Assembly (NCBI GenBank): GCA_949480205.1
Contig: CASXXK010000007.1
Coordinates: 1 to 39,262 of the forward strand
Origin: an uncultured Candidatus Saccharibacteria bacterium
GTDB lineage: Bacteria; Patescibacteriota; Saccharimonadia; Saccharimonadales; Saccharimonadaceae
Direction: 5' to 3'
DNA: 39,262 nt
This document shows positions 95 to 39,262 of the stretch, one piece after another. A program made the position numbers and the translations under genes. Below the pieces are notes generated by a model that worked only from the letters and a program-made list of their open reading frames with translations, did not search any database and had not been told where the DNA came from. The first letter of the stretch is position 1; each line of letters opens with the position of its first letter.

Positions 95-316
95 ATCGTG
101 CGCAGCGGTGGGCTTTTCCTTGATAATGGTTCCGCAGGTAGACCACACTTTGATTATATGGGTCTTCATGGCCTATATCGCTCATCGCGTACGACTTCTG
201 AAGTTGCTCAAACATACAATCTCCGTTTCTCTATCGATTCCTACCCATCAAGCGTTAGTGTCTACTATCACGGTTTCCCCCTCCGCTGCCTTAGTACTGT
301 ATTAGACATAGTGTAG
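95..316 (+). pseudogene. Headless FISUMP-like surface-domain cassette A
   Basis: The frame reads IVRSG..., a variable middle with YRSS in place of YWSS, then a stretch ending YYHGFPLRCLSTVLDIV and a stop. This matches the C-terminal part (about 65 residues) of FISUMP/DUF1566-like lectin-fold surface proteins as I know them from Saccharibacteria; the assignment is by recognition. There is no signal peptide, no upstream domain and no good start: the only in-frame start is a TTG at 77 inside the palindromic element, without a Shine-Dalgarno. It shares with the other four cassettes the 5' end 'cgtgcgcagcgg' and the 3' end 'ttccccctccgctgcctta'. It is the most divergent in its middle. It is probably not expressed alone and may be a recombination donor or a remnant. 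Confidence 0.6.
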
Positions 317-12226: not shown

Positions 12227-13028
12227 TTACTTTTGTGATTCCATGCGCATTGTAGCTATGAACGACGGTATGATGCAAAATGTCCAGCCACAAGCTTTGG
12301 CGGCAGCCACGCAGAAATTACAACTTGCTTCAAGATTGGAGCGGCCGCGATAGAACCTCCGCCCTAATCTGTGAATGTAGCGCAGACTTATCTGGCGCCT
12401 CGTGGGAGCTTCCATCAAGAAACACAAGAACGGAGTAACCACAATCGCCCTACTGCAAATTCCAGTAGTCAAATGGATCAAATCTTCCGGCGAAAATGCT
12501 ACTGGTTCCGGACCGGGGTGGTTGTGAACGATAATACAATCAGAGTGTTGCAGAATTAAGTCCTGATCCCCGTCACAGAGGGCAGTCATGCTTGGATGGT
12601 TTAGAGTTGACTCGCAGATTTTTTTGCCAGCTGCAGTAAAAAACGCTACATACTCCACGGGCTCGTACATAATACCGCACATCACGCTGGAGAGTGTTTC
12701 GCCGTGATCAGCATGCACGGGTTCGCCGAACTCTGCAAATACTCGCTCTCGGCGTAATGCTTGGCGCAAGAAATAAATCTCGTTTAGAGCAACCCGCAGG
12801 AACAACAGCTGAAGACTAACCGTCACTATATAGAGTATTTTGACGGTTAGTGAGTCCGTCATAAATGCCAGACTCACTAACCGTCACTATATAGAGTATT
12901 TTGACGGTTAGTGAGTCCGTCATAAATGCCAGACTCACGTTACATATAAAAGCTATGGAGAATATGACGGTAAAGACAATGGTGGTGATGAGCCTTATGG
13001 TGATGGTGGTTTGTTTGGAAAAGTACAT
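12227..13028 (-). pseudogene. Membrane-anchored JAMM/RadC-like gene split by a 61-bp tandem duplication
   Basis: The gene starts at ATG 13028 behind AGGAGG with an N-terminal membrane helix (MYFSKQTTITIRLITTIVF). After about 50 codons it hits two identical 61-bp units; because 61 is not a multiple of 3, the frame breaks and stops at 12816. The second part continues in another frame from inside the second unit (12877 to 12227). Removing one unit restores one open frame through ICNVSLAFMTDSLTV into LQLLFLRVAL. The second part carries HNHPG and SPED, the H-x-H-P...S-x-x-D pattern of JAMM metalloproteases and RadC. It is either a fresh pseudogene or an on/off phase-variable gene in its off state. 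Confidence 0.8.
12815..12936. repeat. 61-bp perfect tandem duplication with internal inverted repeats
   Basis: Units 12815-12875 and 12876-12936 are identical. Each contains the 10-bp arms actaaccgtc / gacggttagt around a 17-nt loop, plus actcac/gtgagt arms, so each can form a cruciform. The duplication lies inside the JAMM gene. Confidence 0.97.
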
Positions 13029-13147: not shown

Positions 13148-16100
13148 ATGACGGAGGTAACTAAAGATTCTGAGCTGCTAAAAGTGAGCGATTTTGTGCA
13201 TTTGCACAACCATACCCATTATTCTTTGCTGGACGGGCTTACTAAGATCCCTGAACTGGTAGATTTTGTGAAAGAGCATGGTATGGAAGCAGTTGCTGTG
13301 ACCGACCATGGCACTATGAGTGGCCTGGTTGAACTGTATAAGGCTTGTAATGATGCTGGAATTAAACCAATTCTTGGCCTAGAGGCTTATGTGGCGGCAC
13401 GCAACATGGAAGATCACGATCCGGCGCATGACAAACAGCGTTTTCACATTACCTTGCTCGCGATGAATAATCAGGGCTTCGAAAACCTTTGCCATCTCAT
13501 GTCAGAAGCTGAGATTCACGGACGCTACTACAAGCCGCGCATTGACCATAAAATCATGGAGCAATTTAGCGAAGGTATTATTTGTCTGAGTGGCTGCGCC
13601 GGTTCTGAGATTTCTGAGGCGATTCGCGCCAACGACCCCAAGCGGGCTCGCGAGTTGATTGATTGGTACCATAATCTATATGGCGATCGCTTCTATTTGG
13701 AAATGCAGGACCATGGTCACCCCGATTCTCCGACTCACTGGGATGTGCAAAATCAAATCAACCAGCAATTGATGAAGTTCCACGAAGAGACGGGAATTCC
13801 GCTAGTGGTGACTTGTGACGCGCACTATCTGCGCCATGAACAACAAGACACGCACGAAGTTTTGCTCTGTGTGGGCACAGCATCCAACCTTTCCAACCCC
13901 AACCGCATGACTCTGAAGGATTTTGAGTTGCATGTAATTCCGCCAGATGAAATTATCGCGCGTTGGCAAAAAACTTGCCCCGAGGCTGTGCGTAATTCAC
14001 GGCGCATTGCTGACCGCTGTAATGTAGACTTACAGCTTGGTCGAATTTTGATTCCGAAGTTTCCAGTGCCAGAAGGCGAAGATGAAAAATCTTACCTAGA
14101 TAAGCTAGTCTTCCAGGGCTTGGTTTATCGCTACGCCGGCAAAAAACTTGAAGAAACGGTAGATTTGAGTGTGGCGGAATGCCGCAAAATGCTGGAAGAA
14201 GTGGATAAATCACCCGAGCGTGCCGAAGAAAAAATGAAAGTTCTGCCACGTATCGACTACGAGCTGGGCGTGGTGGATAAAATGGGTTATAATGGTTACT
14301 TCTTGATTGTGCAGGACTTTATTAACTGGGGTAAAAGCCAAAGAATCGTGTTTGGGCCAGGGCGTGGCTCGGCGGCGGGTAGTATTTTGGCCTATGCTTT
14401 AAGGATTACCGAGCTTGATCCGCTTAAATATGATCTGCTCTTTGAGCGCTTTTTGAACCCAGACCGTATCTCAATGCCAGATATTGATACAGACATTCAA
14501 GATACTCGTCGTGACGAAGTGATTGAGTATTGTACCCGCAAATACGGTAAAGGACGCGTGTCAAACATTGCTACTTTCGGTAAAATGATGGCCAAAAACG
14601 CCGTGCGTGACGTGGCGCGCGTGCTGGAAGTGCCATATGCTGAAGCGGATCGTTTGGCTAAGTTGGTGCCAGACCCAGTGCAGGGCCACCATGTGCATTT
14701 GACGGACGCGATTCGTGATGTGCCCGACCTGAAGCACGAGTATGAGACTAATCCAATTTCGAAGGAAGTTTTGGATTTTGCGAGCCAGCTGGAGGGAACG
14801 GTACGCAACCATGGTGTGCACGCTTGTGGTGTGATTATTGCCCCTGATGAGCTCGAAAAATTCCTCCCGCTTGAAGTTTCTGCCAAAGGGCCAATCGCTG
14901 CCCAATTCCCAATGGGTCAAGTGGAAGAATTGGGCTTGCTCAAAATGGACTTCCTTGGCCTTTCCAACCTCTCCGTGATTAACAACGCTCTGCGTATGAT
15001 TCGTAAAGTCTACCATGATGATGTTGATTTGGTGCATTTGCCGCTCGACGATCCGGAGACTTATCAACTATTGCAGCGTGCCGAGACTACTGGTGTGTTC
15101 CAGCTGGAATCTGCGGGCATGAAACGCTATTTGCGCGACCTCAAAGCCAACTGTTTTGAGGATATCATCGCTATGGTGGCCCTCTATCGTCCGGGCCCAA
15201 TGCAGTTTATTGATCAGTTCATTCGTCGCAAACACGGCGAAGAGCCAATCACATACCTTCACCCTGGGCTAGAGAACTCGCTCAAAAATACCTATGGTAT
15301 TATGATCTACCAGGAGCAGTTCATGCAGATTTCGCGTGAGTGGTGCGGATTTACTGGTGGTCAAGCTGATACCCTGCGCAAAGCAGTAGGTAAAAAGAAA
15401 GTTGACTTGATGAACAAGGTTAAACCACAGTTCATCGAAGGCGCAATCAAAGTTGGTGGAGCTACCAAAGAAATCGCTGAGGAATTCTGGGTGGAGCTAC
15501 TCGACTTTGCAAACTACTGTTTCAACAAATCCCACGCAGCGTGTTATGGTCTAGTCGCATACTGGACGGCTTATCTCAAAGCACACTATCCTGACGCCTT
15601 CATGGCAGCTCTAATGACGGCCGATATGCGCTGGACCGATCGTCTCGCTATTGAGATTACCGAGTGCAAGCGCATGGGTATCCCAGTGCTTGGCCCGGAT
15701 ATCAACGAGTCTTACGGTGACTTTGGTATTGTGGGCACGGAGAAAAAGATTCGCTTCGGTCTCTCTGGTATCAAATCCATGGGTAAGGCACTCGTGGAGG
15801 AATTCGTGATTCCAGAGCGCGATAAGAATGGTCCGTTCACGAGTGTTTGTGATTTTGCGGCTCGAGTCAACTCTAGCAAATTCAACAAGAAGTCTTGGGA
15901 AGCCGCGATTAAGACTGGTGCTTTTGATAGCTTTGGTGATCGTAGCGACTTGCTATTCAATCTTGAGGCAATTCAGGCTTACGGCGCCAAACGTCAAAAA
16001 GATGCAGCTAGTGGACAAACCGATCTCTTTGGCGCAATGGGCGATGCTGGGGCAGTGCCTGAACCAGAGATCAAAACCGCACCTACCAAATTCCCAGAAA

Positions 16101-32381: not shown

Positions 32382-32390
32382 AAAATTGGC

Positions 32391-32470
32391 TCAGTTAACT
32401 GAGGGCAGCACTATTCAAGTGCCGCCCTCAGTTAACTGAGGGCAGCACTATTCAAGTGCCGCCCGACTCT
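32391..32470 (+). terminator. Tandemly duplicated terminator hairpin (2 x 37 bp)
   Basis: Units 32391-32427 and 32428-32464 are identical. Each has the palindrome ctcagttaactgag and a hairpin gggcagcact / agtgccgccc around attca. The second is followed by gactcTTTTT, giving a working terminator for the gene at 31902. Confidence 0.88.
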
Positions 32471-34633: not shown

Positions 34634-34830
34634 ACATGTCTAAGGTAGCGGAGGGGGAAAGCGAAGTAGCGAGGATTCGGGCCACCTGATGGACTAACAT
34701 TATTTGCACCAAAATATAAGTTATGTGCCGTAGCCAAAGCGTCTGAGTGTGACGACCAATAGTCAGCACCGAGACCAGAAGTTCTCAAAACACCATCGGA
34801 ATTAGGCAATCGTACATACCCGCTGCGCAC
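34634..34830 (-). pseudogene. Headless FISUMP-like cassette B
   Basis: Minus strand, from gtgcgcagcgg: VRSGYVRLPNSDGVLR..., ADYWSS, AHNLYFGANNVSPSGG, then FAFPLRYL. It lacks any N-terminal part; the open frame upstream simply runs through the palindrome of the spacer. Its 3' end differs from the others: Cys is Tyr (ctac for ctgc), and 11 bp are missing between two TTAG repeats (ccttag-acatg where the others have ccttagtactgtattagacatg). This shifts the frame, so the STVLDM tail is lost. It is divergent from cassette C, with the shared element between them. Confidence 0.65.
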
Positions 34831-34949
34831 AATTTTTGAGTATCGTGTTACCTTATCGTTTTTTAAAAAACGATAAGGTCCAAAAATCATTCTACCCCTG
34901 TTATTTCAAACAGCACACCTTATCACTTTTTAATTTTCGTTAAGGTCTC
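34831..34949. repeat. Cassette-upstream element, copy 2 (between cassettes B and C)
   Basis: Contains a perfect 30-bp palindrome at 34850-34879 (outer accttatcgtt / aacgataaggt) and an imperfect related one at 34917-34946, centres 67 bp apart, separated by a segment conserved with copy 1 (cccctgttatttcaaa). The 11-bp arms with 8-bp centres recall tyrosine-recombinase sites, but no recombinase is in the window. Confidence 0.8.
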
Positions 34950-35201
34950 GTGCGCAGCGGGAATTTTGAGTTACTTACCACTATGGGAACTTTAAGGATT
35001 GTCGGACATGGCGACTACTGGTCATCACGGGCGGATACTTATACATCATCTACCGCGGCGACCGCTTACTACCTCATCTTTACTACTAATGTCAGTCCTT
35101 CCAATGGCCCACTTAACCGTTGGTACGGTTTCCCCCTCCGCTGCCTTAGTACTGTATTAGACATGGAGGAGAATCAGGTGGTTAGCATTGACATTTGTTG
35201 A
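34950..35201 (+). pseudogene. Headless FISUMP-like cassette C
   Basis: Starts at gtgcgcagcggg (VRSGNFEL), then GTLRIVGHGDYWSSRADTYT, TAYYLIFTTNVSPSNGP and RWYGFPLRCLSTVLDM. Homology ends at the ATG of LDM near 35165; the frame then continues 12 codons into unrelated sequence holding the trmD promoter. The usual stop after LDM is missing, so the 3' breakpoint is visible. No promoter, Shine-Dalgarno or upstream domain. It is most similar to cassette D. Confidence 0.65.
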
Positions 35202-35216
35202 TACCTGTGTCAAAAT
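35188..35216 (+). promoter_or_regulatory. trmD promoter
   Basis: TTGACA (35188-35193), 17 nt ending CTGTGT, CAAAAT (35211-35216). ATG 35227 is 10 nt further, so the leader would be only a few bases. Confidence 0.55.
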
Positions 35217-35226
35217 AGTAACAATT

Positions 35227-36078
35227 ATGCCAAAAATCAAGTTTACCATCATTACGCTTTTTCCAGAAGCTTTGCGGCCGTATCTGGATAGTTCTATGTT
35301 GTTTAAGGCGCAAAAACAGGGAATTATTGCAATAGATTATGTAAATTTACGCGACTTTGGGCTTGGTCCACATAAATCCGTGGACGATACGCCTTACGGC
35401 GGCGGCGACGGTATGCTTTTGCGCTGCGAGCCAGTGTTTGCGGCAATCGAAAGCGTTAAACGAGATTCACCCGAAGCGGAAGTAATTTTACCTACGCCAG
35501 TAGGGGCAACTTGGAACCAGGCCTTAGCGCGGCAATTCGCTGGCGTCGAGACGACTAACAACGAGAACTTGGCAGAAATGGCCAAATCTCGCTCATTGGC
35601 GCATACAGGTCGGCCTGAGCAGTATGCTTTTCGGGAATCTCCGGAGGCTACGGCCGAGGATGAAGATGCGCGACACCCGCAACGGCAGGCTGGCGCGACA
35701 TCGTGCCCCGAAAAAGATGATGGTCAGGCCGAGTATGTGCGCCATTATATCATTCTTTGCCCACACTACGAGGGCTACGACGAGCGCATCATGACTATTG
35801 TTGATCATCCAATTTCACTAGGGAATTATGTTTTGACTGGCGGGGAATTACCGGCGCTGATTATTATTGATAGTGTGACGCGTCTCTTGCCGGGCGTGCT
35901 GGGTGGAGAAACCTCAGCGGCAATTGAGAGTTTTTCTTGCGGCGATAACTTGGAGTATCCGCAGTATACCAAACCGGCCGAATTTCGCGGCATGGCCGTA
36001 CCGAATGTGCTAATGTCCGGCAATCACGGCGCCATTGCTAAGTGGCGAGCCGACCACAGCAGCAGATCGGTGCTATAA
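35227..36078 (+). CDS. trmD: tRNA (guanine-37-N1)-methyltransferase with in-frame insertion
   Basis: A SPOUT methyltransferase that makes m1G37 in tRNAs and prevents frameshifting. It has 283 residues, about 40 more than E. coli TrmD. The core is present: SVDDTPYGGGDGMLL, YEGYDERI, SLGNYVLTGGELPALIIIDSVTRLLPGVLG. An insertion of about 60 residues (about 106-171) interrupts the site just before the knot (YIILCPHYEG), and most of it is encoded by a palindromic element. The knot motif reads CPHYEG where CGRYEG is usual. The start is ATG 35227; the in-frame TTG 35188 is the -35 box. The stop codon overlaps the recG -10 box. Confidence 0.93.
   Translation: MPKIKFTIITLFPEALRPYLDSSMLFKAQKQGIIAIDYVNLRDFGLGPHKSVDDTPYGGGDGMLLRCEPVFAAIESVKRDSPEAEVILPTPVGATWNQALARQFAGVETTNNENLAEMAKSRSLAHTGRPEQYAFRESPEATAEDEDARHPQRQAGATSCPEKDDGQAEYVRHYIILCPHYEGYDERIMTIVDHPISLGNYVLTGGELPALIIIDSVTRLLPGVLGGETSAAIESFSCGDNLEYPQYTKPAEFRGMAVPNVLMSGNHGAIAKWRADHSSRSVL
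35597..35744. repeat. In-frame palindromic element in trmD
   Basis: Arms tggcgcatac...tcggcctga (35597-35618) and tcaggccga...gtatgtgcgcca (35724-35744) are complementary with small bulges. Inner arms cttttcggg / ccccgaaaaag and a terminal hairpin around cccgc-aacg-gcagg follow. The core shares cggaggctNNNgccgagNatg and tgcgcga..cccg with the obg element. Confidence 0.82.
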
Positions 36079-36079
36079 T
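36074..36079 (+). promoter_or_regulatory. -10 box of recG overlapping the trmD stop
   Basis: GTGC-TATAAT; the TAA within it is the trmD stop. ATG 36086 follows after 6 nt, predicting a leaderless recG mRNA, though read-through from trmD is also likely. Confidence 0.5.
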
Positions 36080-36085
36080 ATTCCT

Positions 36086-38167
36086 ATGGATTTGTCGGCG
36101 GGAATTGAGACGGTTAAAGGTGTGGGGCCCAAGACCGCAGAAATACTGAAGCGCGTCAACCTCTGTACAGTAGGGGACTTGCTTTATTGCTTGCCGCGGC
36201 TGTACGAAAACTACCAGACTACGGTAAACATTGAGGATTTGCGCCCAGGCAAGGTGATTATTCGTGGAAAAATCAGCGATTTGCATATTGTGCGTACCAG
36301 CCGTAAACGCCTCACTATTACTCAAGGTGTGATTCGTGATGAAACTGGCGCGGTACGTACGGTTTGGTTTAATCAACCCTATCGGGCAAAGCAATTTGAC
36401 GAGAAGCGAGAATACTACTTCACCGGAAAATACGAGCTCAAAAGTGGGCGTTATCAGTTAACCTCACCTTCAGCCACACTCGTTCAGGACGTAAATAATG
36501 GCGCTGCGGCGAATTTTCAGCCGATTTATTCCGCCAAAAGCGCCATCAAGCCACAAATGTTTCACAAATTAATGGAAAATCTGCGGCCCGAGTTTGCTCA
36601 GATTCCGGATTTATTACCATTTACGGAAGGAAAACCGCTATTTGTAAAACCCGGCGCACGTGCCGAAGCGCTCTATAATTCCCATTTTCCAGAAAACCCC
36701 GATGACGCCGAGAAAGGACGTGACTATTTGGCTTATGAAGAGCTCTTCGAGCTAATTTTGGCGGCCAAACTCAATAAGCAGGAAAACCAGCGTTTGCGGG
36801 CCGAATCGCTGAAGTTTAATGCTAAATTTACGCAAGTTTTGGTAAAACATCTCCCCTTCGCGCTAACGGGAGCGCAACGCCGGGCGACCTGGGAAATTTT
36901 GCAAGATTTAGAGAAAAATGTGCCGATGAATCGCCTTCTGCAAGGCGACGTAGGCTCCGGTAAAACAATTGTGGCAGCGCTAGCGGCCGCCCAGACCGCT
37001 CTAAACGGTCACCAGACAGCCCTGCTCGCGCCCACCGCCATCTTGGCCACTCAACATTTTGAAAGCCTCCAGACACTGTTTGTGGAGCTGCAGAAGGCAT
37101 TTTTGCGGGAATTTGGCAAAAAAATCCGTTTGCCGCAAATTGCTTTATTGACGGGAGCAACCAAAAACAAACGCATGTTGAAGGCGGCAATTAAGGCTGG
37201 ACAAATCGAATTGATTATTGGTACGCATGCCTTAATTACCGATGACACGCAATTTAAATCATTAGCTTTTTGTATCATCGATGAGCAGCACCGTTTTGGT
37301 GTGGGGCAGCGGCAGAAGTTACTCCTTAAATCCCCCAATAATACTGCGCCGCATCTCTTGGCTATGACCGCTACGCCAATCCCGCGCTCTTTGCAATTGA
37401 CGCTGTTTGGAGACCTTGACGTTTCGATCTTGAATGAATTGCCACCGGGGCGCCAGCCGATTGTAACCAAGATTCTGGCAGAAACCGAGCAGCGCGACGA
37501 GCTTTACCCTAAGATGCGCGAACTTTTGGCGAAAAAACAGCAAATTTATTGGATTTGCCAGGTGATTGAAGAGAAAAATTCGGGCACAGCCACGCCTGTT
37601 AAGAAACAAGTCAAAAAATTGCAGGAACTGTTTCCGCAAGTAAAAGTGGAAATGTTGCACGGCAAGATGAAACCCGAAGAGAAAGATGCGATTATGACGC
37701 GGTTTGCGGCTAATCAGATTCAGATTTTGGTGTCAACTACGGTGGTAGAAGTGGGCGTGAATGTGCCGAACGCGAACATGATTGTGATCCAAGATGCGGA
37801 AAACTACGGTTTGGCACAGTTGCACCAGTTGCGTGGCCGAGTGGGACGGGGTGATCAGCCGGCTAGTTGTTTCTTATTAACTACCGGCGAGGGGCGCCCT
37901 TCCAAACGCTTACGCGAAATGGAAAAATCTACCGACGGTTTTTACTTGGCGGAAGTAGACTTGAAGATTCGTGGACCAGGCGAGATCTACGGCTCACAGC
38001 AGCATGGTGAATTAAATTTACAAGTAGCTAACTTGAATGATACGACTTTGATGGCTCAGGCTAGCCATCATGCTGGAAATTTTGCCAAAGACCCCGCAGC
38101 GCTGCAAAACTATCCTGAGCTAGCTGCTCGGATTAAAAAATATCAACAACTCACGACGCTAAATTAA
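36086..38167 (+). CDS. recG: ATP-dependent DNA helicase RecG
   Basis: A branch-migrating helicase that remodels stalled forks and Holliday junctions, 693 residues, the family length. The wedge/OB domain opens with ETVKGVGPKTAEIL and includes the GKVIIRGKISDL strand. Walker A is GDVGSGKT, followed by LLAPTAILA, the DEQHRFG box, TATPIPRSL, GDLDVSILNELPPGR, then helicase_C with STTVVEVGVNVPNA and QLRGRVGRG. ATG 36086 is chosen over the upstream in-frame ATG 36035, which lies inside trmD, because MDLSAGIETVKGVG matches the usual RecG start. No terminator is seen after the stop; cassette D begins within about 30 bp. Confidence 0.97.
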   Translation: MDLSAGIETVKGVGPKTAEILKRVNLCTVGDLLYCLPRLYENYQTTVNIEDLRPGKVIIRGKISDLHIVRTSRKRLTITQGVIRDETGAVRTVWFNQPYRAKQFDEKREYYFTGKYELKSGRYQLTSPSATLVQDVNNGAAANFQPIYSAKSAIKPQMFHKLMENLRPEFAQIPDLLPFTEGKPLFVKPGARAEALYNSHFPENPDDAEKGRDYLAYEELFELILAAKLNKQENQRLRAESLKFNAKFTQVLVKHLPFALTGAQRRATWEILQDLEKNVPMNRLLQGDVGSGKTIVAALAAAQTALNGHQTALLAPTAILATQHFESLQTLFVELQKAFLREFGKKIRLPQIALLTGATKNKRMLKAAIKAGQIELIIGTHALITDDTQFKSLAFCIIDEQHRFGVGQRQKLLLKSPNNTAPHLLAMTATPIPRSLQLTLFGDLDVSILNELPPGRQPIVTKILAETEQRDELYPKMRELLAKKQQIYWICQVIEEKNSGTATPVKKQVKKLQELFPQVKVEMLHGKMKPEEKDAIMTRFAANQIQILVSTTVVEVGVNVPNANMIVIQDAENYGLAQLHQLRGRVGRGDQPASCFLLTTGEGRPSKRLREMEKSTDGFYLAEVDLKIRGPGEIYGSQQHGELNLQVANLNDTTLMAQASHHAGNFAKDPAALQNYPELAARIKKYQQLTTLN

Positions 38168-38189: not shown

Positions 38190-38398
38190 AAAAACATAAG
38201 GCAGCGGAGGGGGAAACCGTACCAGCGATTGTTCGGGCCGTTGGACGGGTTGACCGCAGTATTGAATTCGAGGTAGTAAGCAGTCGCCGAGGTAGAAGAC
38301 GTATAGGCGGCAGCTCGCGACGACCAGTAGTCAGCATTGTGGCCAGCGTTCCTTAAAGTACCAGCAGTTTTAGGTAATTCGAAGTAGCCGCTGCGCAC
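38190..38398 (-). pseudogene. Headless FISUMP-like cassette D
   Basis: Minus strand from gtgcgcagcggc: VRSGYFELPKTAGTLR, ADYWSSRAAAYTSS, TAYYLEFNTAVNPSNGPN and RWYGFPLRCL. The STVLDM tail is replaced by unrelated codons directly after CL, giving a 3' breakpoint at 'ccgctgcctta' (about 38198). An in-frame stop lies a few codons upstream of VRSG, so there is no N-terminal part to express. It abuts the end of recG tail to tail. Confidence 0.65.
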
Positions 38399-38744: not shown

Positions 38745-39143
38745 CTATTTTTTATAGAACATGATTTTTCCGGGTTTTATGATAACGTACATTTTGTGTA
38801 CTTTGCGCGTCGTTCTGAAGCATTTTTCTAAAAGATGGACCATGGATTTAATGTCATTATTTATCCTACGCAAATCTATAACGATATTTTTGGATTGGTT
38901 GCTTGCTTCATAAAATACACGCTCAATAGTGCGCCGTGATTTTTGCGTAGGGCTTTTTGTCTCCCATTCCAACCCGTCCATGACAAAATCTGGTCGCTTT
39001 GAATGTGGTGTGTTTGATGGCGTGATTAGCTCAACTGTCTTGCCTAGATTTGCAAATAGTAAAAACGTATCCATTTCATGGGGCTCAGGCTTGACGCCAT
39101 TCGGTATAATTTTGCCAGGTTGCTTAGATATAGTTTTTCTCAT
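38745..39143 (-). CDS. Stand-alone CdiA-CT-like PD-(D/E)xK nuclease domain
   Basis: This 132-residue protein resembles the C-terminal tRNase domain of CdiA toxins: after a basic N-terminus, the core reads KRPDFVMDGLEWETKSP with Asp52 and Glu61-x-Lys63 as the likely metal site, then a helix RRTIERVFYEASNQSKNIVID and basic strands. In CDI systems this domain is the tip of a giant secreted protein; here it is alone, with no signal peptide, no delivery domain and no neighbouring immunity gene in view (upstream lies cassette E). It may be an orphan module or a housekeeping relative. ATG 39143 has no clear Shine-Dalgarno; a weak TTGGTA-16-TATGCT lies upstream. Confidence 0.65.
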   Translation of the reverse strand: MRKTISKQPGKIIPNGVKPEPHEMDTFLLFANLGKTVELITPSNTPHSKRPDFVMDGLEWETKSPTQKSRRTIERVFYEASNQSKNIVIDLRRINNDIKSMVHLLEKCFRTTRKVHKMYVIIKPGKIMFYKK

Positions 39144-39204: not shown

Positions 39205-39262
39205 TTACATGTCTAATACAGTACTAAGGCAGCGGAGGGGGAAAGCATGCCAACGGTGGCTT
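39205..39262 (-). pseudogene. FISUMP-like cassette E, C-terminal end only (continues beyond window)
   Basis: The minus strand reads SHRWHAFPLRCLSTVLDM and a TAA stop, with the same ttccccctccgctgccttagtactg end as A and C. This is the only copy in the window with the complete STVLDM-stop end, so it shows the native C-terminus. Whether its N-terminal part is present cannot be seen. Confidence 0.7.

Follow-up and report, generated by a model that had tools for sequence, protein, structure and literature searches.

The window, a stretch of 39,262 nucleotides, contains five fragments that encode one C-terminal segment of a FISUMP-type protein. Comparison with the rest of its genome and with related genomes shows that they belong to a large silent repertoire which very probably feeds, by segmental gene conversion, one expressed FISUMP surface gene, conversion occurring also among the donors themselves. 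In two related species the tail of the complete gene is an exact copy of a silent cassette, so that the cell very probably varies its surface by copying, as do some pathogens in evading immunity. The window's own genome (termed G000; 855,131 bases in 28 contigs, 87.6% complete) is probably that of a member of Candidatus Saccharibacteria. All assemblies used are drafts of the metagenome type, one genome per species, in which mixing of strains is possible.

Headless cassettes in the window

All five fragments listed in the earlier note were located in the window sequence (Table 1). They do encode a common C-terminal segment, and the agreement far exceeds chance: the 21-nt block at their 3' side, TTTCCCCCTCCGCTGCCTTAG, occurs 87 times on both strands of G000 when up to two mismatches are allowed, and not once when the reversed block is used as a control. 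The start GTGCGCAGCGG is present in all four complete fragments and TTTCCCCCTCCGCT(G/A)CCTT in all five. Thus the start and the 3' block are shared as the earlier note had claimed, but the tail of cassette D is different, being of the rarer type GCCGCGG..GGTGCCGATC.

Table 1. Cassettes and spacer in the window (positions are those of the window)
Feature	Position	Strand	Description
Cassette A	98..313	+	Headless FISUMP C-terminal cassette, VRSG...FPLRCLSTVLD; GTG at 98; open frame, both end blocks
Cassette B	34642..34830	-	Headless; terminates PLRYL, tail AGACATGTAG
Spacer B/C	34831..34949	.	119 nt, separates head-to-head cassettes B and C
Cassette C	34950..35147	+	Headless; tail AGTACTGTATTAGACATG to about 35167; trmD directly downstream
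Cassette D	38198..38398	-	Rare class, tail GCCGCGG..GGTGCCGATC; directly downstream of recG
Cassette E	about 39205..39262	-	3' end only; cut by the contig end

Downstream of cassette A lies the EF-Tu gene (tuf, at 464). The spacer between B and C includes the palindrome ACCTTATCGTTTTTTAAAAAACGATAAGGT (34850-34879) and has a related copy at positions 1-86, and the last 55 nt of cassette E match exactly the end of contig C1. Some other features of the window were recorded. A 132-codon ORF standing alone between cassettes D and E (38745-39143, minus strand) has a match (E 9e-14) to PF18451, the C-terminal domain of CdiA, which is a toxin domain of the contact-dependent-inhibition type. The trmD gene (35188-36078, plus strand) has an apparent extra stretch at about 35560-35735 that is unmatched in the sister species G060 (positions 407-539 of the query, which covered 35200-38160). 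Exact intergenic tandem duplications are found at 12815-12936 (61 nt twice) and 32390-32463 (37 nt twice).

The silent repertoire of the genome

At up to three mismatches, the 3' block was found 90 times in G000, corresponding to 73 complete cassettes and 17 copies without a usable 5' end, nearly all of which are cut by contig ends or by the limits of the stretch analysed. The complete cassettes measure 180-213 nt from block to block and are all in frame. None of them contains an in-frame stop; after shuffling, 93% of the cassettes had at least one, and nearly all antisense frames and most of the other real frames have stops as well. The signs of decay that the earlier note had held against a role as donors, namely stops and lost ends, were thus looked for, and the frames proved open and the ends conserved.

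An exact left block GTGCGCAGCGG is found in 69 of the 73 cassettes, and only a common (T)TC precedes this block; farther upstream, the flanks either show no relationship or fall into a few types of spacer. In the right block hardly any variation is seen, even at codon third positions, and most copies continue as AGTACTGTATTAGACATG, the alternative rare tail being confined to six or seven copies, among them window D. Whereas the end blocks are near-invariant even at synonymous sites, the cores between them share a mean pairwise amino-acid identity of 31%, hypervariable positions being interspersed among conserved anchor residues; conserved ends and variable centres, as noted for the window fragments, therefore characterize the whole set. 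The reported lack of a ribosome site likewise extends to the whole set, since a ribosome-site-like motif at the proper place was found in 0 of 73 cassettes, as compared to 13 of 20 long ORFs of the window.

Only three of the 73 complete cassettes overlap an ORF of at least 200 codons. The scattered location between genes that had been described for the window thus holds genome-wide for about 90 cassettes, nearly all of them intergenic. Among 29 pairs of neighbouring cassettes less than 700 nt apart, 24 are oriented head-to-head, with spacers of 15-17 nt (ten pairs), 85-86 nt (four pairs) and 120-130 nt (five pairs, B/C included). Searches with the cassettes alone gave no match in Pfam, and a sequence search of the PDB gave nothing convincing; a scan of viral contigs revealed no relatives. 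Structure predictions were of low confidence (mean pLDDT 44 and 41) and give no basis for claiming a C-type-lectin-like fold.

The full-length expression gene

A FISUMP family search of G000 identified a single locus, on contig C20. Its 468-codon frame encodes a signal peptide, a front domain and the motifs ..GKMYWVAKMKDGRCWMTQNLAL....SICPKGWQLPTAGSQADGKSG, and runs off the contig end, at base 13,902, just short of the cassette. It is furnished with a ribosome site and with a promoter of the sigma70 type, TTGACA-17-GATAAT (11/12 matches); promoter and leader of the front-part gene are recognisable in five species. Uncut homologues comprise 620 codons in the related species G024 and 578 codons in G061 (CANENS010000002.1), and both proteins end ..PLYFVRSG......GFP(V/L)RCL.. 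followed by the stop, indicating that the cassettes are exactly the missing C-terminal segment. The variable segment extends from VRSG as far as the stop, covers the final 60-70 residues of the protein and forms the C-terminal part of the FISUMP domain. The predicted combination of a full-length secreted gene with many headless copies was accordingly found, G000 having one N-terminal gene and about 90 cassettes; far from being absent, which the earlier note had considered a refutation, full-length homologues are intact in G061 and G024.

Other contigs, including that of a close relative (CAMUBZ010000013.1, 81% identical), end at nearly the same point as the C20 gene. One silent copy of G061 starts at ..QLPTSN.. 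and is a longer donor; such longer donors may explain the shared break point of the contigs carrying the expression gene.

The full-length G061 protein scored 49.5 bits with TIGR02145 (cut-off 41.65), and the truncated G000 protein, with 35.2 bits, remained below the cut-off; PF09603 was below cut-off in all three proteins tested. In Pfam, the FISUMP model was the sole match of the expression proteins, PF01617 (the Anaplasma msp2/p44 family) not being matched. A weak resemblance to NF058581, a pilin domain of the Pam pilus from the candidate phyla radiation, was seen in the front domain of homologous expression proteins (E 1.5e-4 for L121 6108-7907 and 0.22 for L120 9890-11611, both below cut-off), hinting at a possible pilus-like or tip role of the protein.

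Exact copies in expressed and silent positions

The strongest evidence for reading the fragments as gene-conversion donors comes from the two species in which the gene is intact. In one of these, G061, its cassette is identical to a single silent one, located on a different contig (C4:11265-11463; 100% over 199 nt). Identity starts at TCGTTCGCAGCGG and stops just past the stop codon, the flanks being unrelated, and the other cassettes of G061 share only the end blocks with the expressed one. In G024, the expressed cassette equals a silent cassette at C19:7622-7842 (100% over 220 nt, with abrupt ends). An expressed copy together with its kept donor is therefore present in both species with an intact gene; the G000 locus is cut before the cassette. 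Since the expressed and donor loci have nothing in common to the left of the cassette, the junctions on that side should reflect reads and not misjoining at a repeat.

Near-identical silent twins occur in 4 of 73 cassettes in G000, 6 of 52 in G060 and about 6 of 52 in G061 (about 5-12%). From this base rate, the probability that both of two expressed cassettes have an exact twin by chance is estimated at roughly 0.01-0.04. Whether or not the match arose by chance, the intact gene participates in copying. Within G000, too, identical cassettes are found at unlinked places, with sharp boundaries and unrelated flanks. Seven sets of contig ends break inside common cassette ends, and in six of the sets the break coincides with 55-mers shared exactly. 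A 44-nt segment common to the otherwise different cassettes of L053 and L056 suggests that conversion can also be partial.

Turnover of cassettes between sister species

Cassettes of G000 and its sister species G060 were assigned to the same slot by flank matches of at least 300 nt only, assignments by short repeated flanks being dropped. For 17 ordinary slots the flanks showed a mean identity of 84.6%, as compared to 44.2% for the cores, a value equal to that obtained with shuffled partners (43.8-46.0%). The idea that cassettes might be identical in all strains, which the earlier note had named as refuting, thus fails for these sister species, whose slots differ in content. Two rare-class cassettes, window D included, are 80-88% identical between G000 and G060, like their flanks; D itself has kept both place and content, with a core identity of 80%. 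Cassettes with the rare tail, at 38198-38398 of the window, L060 2004-2189, L274 1501-1689 and L279 3965-4159, are kept in place and content, and may represent a frozen or ancestral donor set.

The 3' tail TTAGACATG is found in 46 of 73 copies in G000 and in none in G060, whereas TTAGGTATG is found in 40 copies in G060 and in none in G000; in most copies of G061 the first codon is GTT instead of GTG. Each species has homogenised its own cassette ends.

Proposed mechanism and alternative explanations

According to the model proposed here, one gene with promoter, ribosome site and signal peptide would give rise to a secreted protein with a variable C-terminus. A silent cassette, which has arms of about 14 nt on the left (TTCGTGCGCAGCGG) and of about 40 nt on the right, would pair through both of them with the expression gene, and copying-in, presumably non-reciprocal, would replace the whole C-terminus including the stop. 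Silent cassettes would overwrite each other likewise, so that ends are kept uniform while middles are renewed. The chemistry would be that of homologous recombination, involving RecA/RuvAB or a dedicated enzyme. It counts against the model that ordinary RecA-dependent recombination usually calls for a longer arm than the left one of about 14 nt. The recG gene adjoins cassette D in the window, which proves nothing on recombination factors. Switching presumably continues at present and the protein presumably is exposed on the surface; judging from the secreted class of the protein and the lifestyle of the group, variation might serve to alter how the cell contacts its bacterial host, or to evade phage or immunity. 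As a wider proposal, which we put forward tentatively and hold to be rather less probable than not, 90-150 dispersed silent cassettes with very short arms, possibly acted upon by a dedicated short-homology system, vary the tip of a secreted protein facing the bacterial host or phages, in an arrangement that arose within one genus.

The short left homology, invariant at the DNA level, the sharp breakpoints, and an inverted 7-mer in the end blocks (GCAGCGG...CCGCTGC) which is present in G000, G060 and G061 could also point to site-specific or short-homology recombination by a dedicated enzyme of the shufflon or integron kind recognising these blocks. We consider this unlikely: copies are kept at both places, so exchange is not conservative, the blocks vary by species (GTG or GTT; GTAGCGG...CCGCTGT in G024), and partial mosaics have internal breakpoints. 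The inverted 7-mers, and the occurrence of identical units with sharp boundaries in unrelated flanks, would fit a transposable unit as well, which inserts new copies and needs no transfer into an expressed gene; open frames conserved without exception make this very improbable, and so do the same slots filled with different contents in sister species, which imply replacement in place and not new insertion. There is likewise very little to be said for independent small genes, each translated from its own GTG. Although all frames are open and the GTG could serve as a start, no relationship is seen between the upstream regions, and what the cassettes encode is the C-terminal portion of a larger domain; the count of ribosome-site-like motifs given above led to rejection of this reading.

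FISUMP-type domains resemble the variable domains of diversity-generating retroelements, and the fully diverged slot contents of sister species might be taken to mean that such an element, or another kind of targeted hypermutation, has diversified the cassettes in place. G000 indeed has one reverse transcriptase gene (PF00078 at G000:C8:26400-26900, in a 502-codon frame), but the gene is not common to all array genomes: the PF00078 search found no reverse transcriptase in the drafts of G060 and G061, which contain full arrays, and the reading was rejected. Exact long copies at unlinked loci moreover indicate copying instead of mutation, and window D and cassettes like it are not hypermutated, so that diversification in place is extremely improbable. 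That the exact matches between expressed and silent cassettes are artefacts of assembly or of strain mixture, produced by misjoined repeats, deserves mention because the genomes are drafts whose contigs break at cassettes. The two loci have no left-side sequence in common by which a long repeat could have cross-joined them, and copies recur in independent assemblies of several species, which renders an artefact most improbable. Segmental gene conversion from silent cassettes thus remains our preferred explanation.

Distribution among relatives

A profile (A1) built from 24 cassettes detected 68-148 cassettes in each of eight genomes, with 80 in G000, 148 in G061 and 127 in G024. A search with the front part found a single gene in each of these three and a few matches in the other array genomes. 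In a first look, at least 80 candidates were counted in 10 of the 174 genomes of the genus; across the order (393 genomes) no other comparable array was found, intermediate numbers occurring only within the same genus. Several relatives without an array have many full-length FISUMP paralogues instead, and many species of the genus, e.g. G014, G028 and G004, show tens of front-part matches and few headless cassettes. Sets of full-length FISUMP paralogues are a possible starting point for the array.

Significance

The organism of the window is ultrasmall, and Saccharibacteria as a group live on other bacteria. Those members of the candidate phyla radiation that are in culture live on other microbes; how they recognise a host is largely unknown (PMC12206443). 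In the open-access literature, we found no paper linking Saccharibacteria or the candidate phyla radiation to a silent-cassette system, which is not proof of novelty, nor a link between the FISUMP family in Saccharibacteria and silent cassettes. The nearest reports are a T4SS paper mentioning antigenic variation in passing, for VirB2 arrays, and work on type IV pili in which host recognition is called largely unknown. The finding singles out one protein as a candidate for host contact and points to a mechanism of host adaptation that can be tested, and would add a route of diversification besides retroelements in the candidate phyla radiation. If the wider proposal made above is true, machinery of antigenic variation would be aimed at bacteria rather than at animal immunity. 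Cassette repeats also explain breaks in assemblies of this kind: contigs end inside cassettes, and in several species the break falls within the expression locus. Metagenome-assembled genomes therefore tend to lack the gene that varies most.

Comparison with known systems

In the pilE/pilS system of Neisseria, silent partial copies devoid of the conserved front donate variable sequence to an expressed surface protein; the product is a pilin, the few pilS loci contain tandem copies, and a G4 structure lies upstream of pilE. The system described here resembles it in that silent donors without a front part would feed one expressed surface gene, but the product is no pilin and the donors are many and dispersed. 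A G4-like motif, GGGGGGGTGAGGGTCTCGGG, is located just 3' of the intact G061 gene (L117 11745), not upstream; it was considered as a candidate for a Neisseria-like initiator. G4 motifs are rare, sixteen being counted in 1.25 Mb (duplicates included), but three lie in the 21-kb expression locus of G061, and the G024 contig ends too soon for comparison.

Shufflons and integrons rely on a site-specific recombinase, a conserved recombination site and conservative exchange; in the present system end blocks exist that differ by species, and copies persist at both places. The G061 expression gene, in passing the TIGR02145 cut-off, is like other FISUMP surface proteins of the genus; these, however, are present as many full-length paralogues per species instead of silent cassettes.

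The vls system of Borrelia burgdorferi comprises headless, in-frame, promoterless cassettes with 17 bp end repeats, from which segmental gene conversion takes place into the expressed lipoprotein gene vlsE; its 15 cassettes form one contiguous array beside vlsE and are 90-96% alike in DNA (PMC2632889). Headless in-frame cassettes without promoter and with short terminal repeats are common to both systems. In contrast to vls, the cassettes described here number about 90-150, are dispersed, share about 31% amino-acid identity in their cores (G000), and whole-cassette copies are seen.

The msp2/p44 family of Anaplasma phagocytophilum ("functional pseudogenes") consists of about 100 silent partial copies in a genome of 1.2-1.5 Mb with a single expression site, the copies having conserved 5' and 3' ends and a variable centre and recombining also within the silent repertoire (PMC2789410, PMC11946796). 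Many silent partial copies, one site, conserved ends and recombination between donors recur in the system proposed here. It differs in its protein, which is of the FISUMP type and not PF01617, in its variable region, which is not central but C-terminal and includes the stop, in its left arm of only about 14 nt, and in its head-to-head pairs with fixed spacers. Finally, the large silent-donor repertoires compared here all come from animal pathogens, as does msp2/p44, whereas the carrier of the present one belongs to the candidate phyla radiation, has a reduced genome and is a probable bacterial episymbiont.
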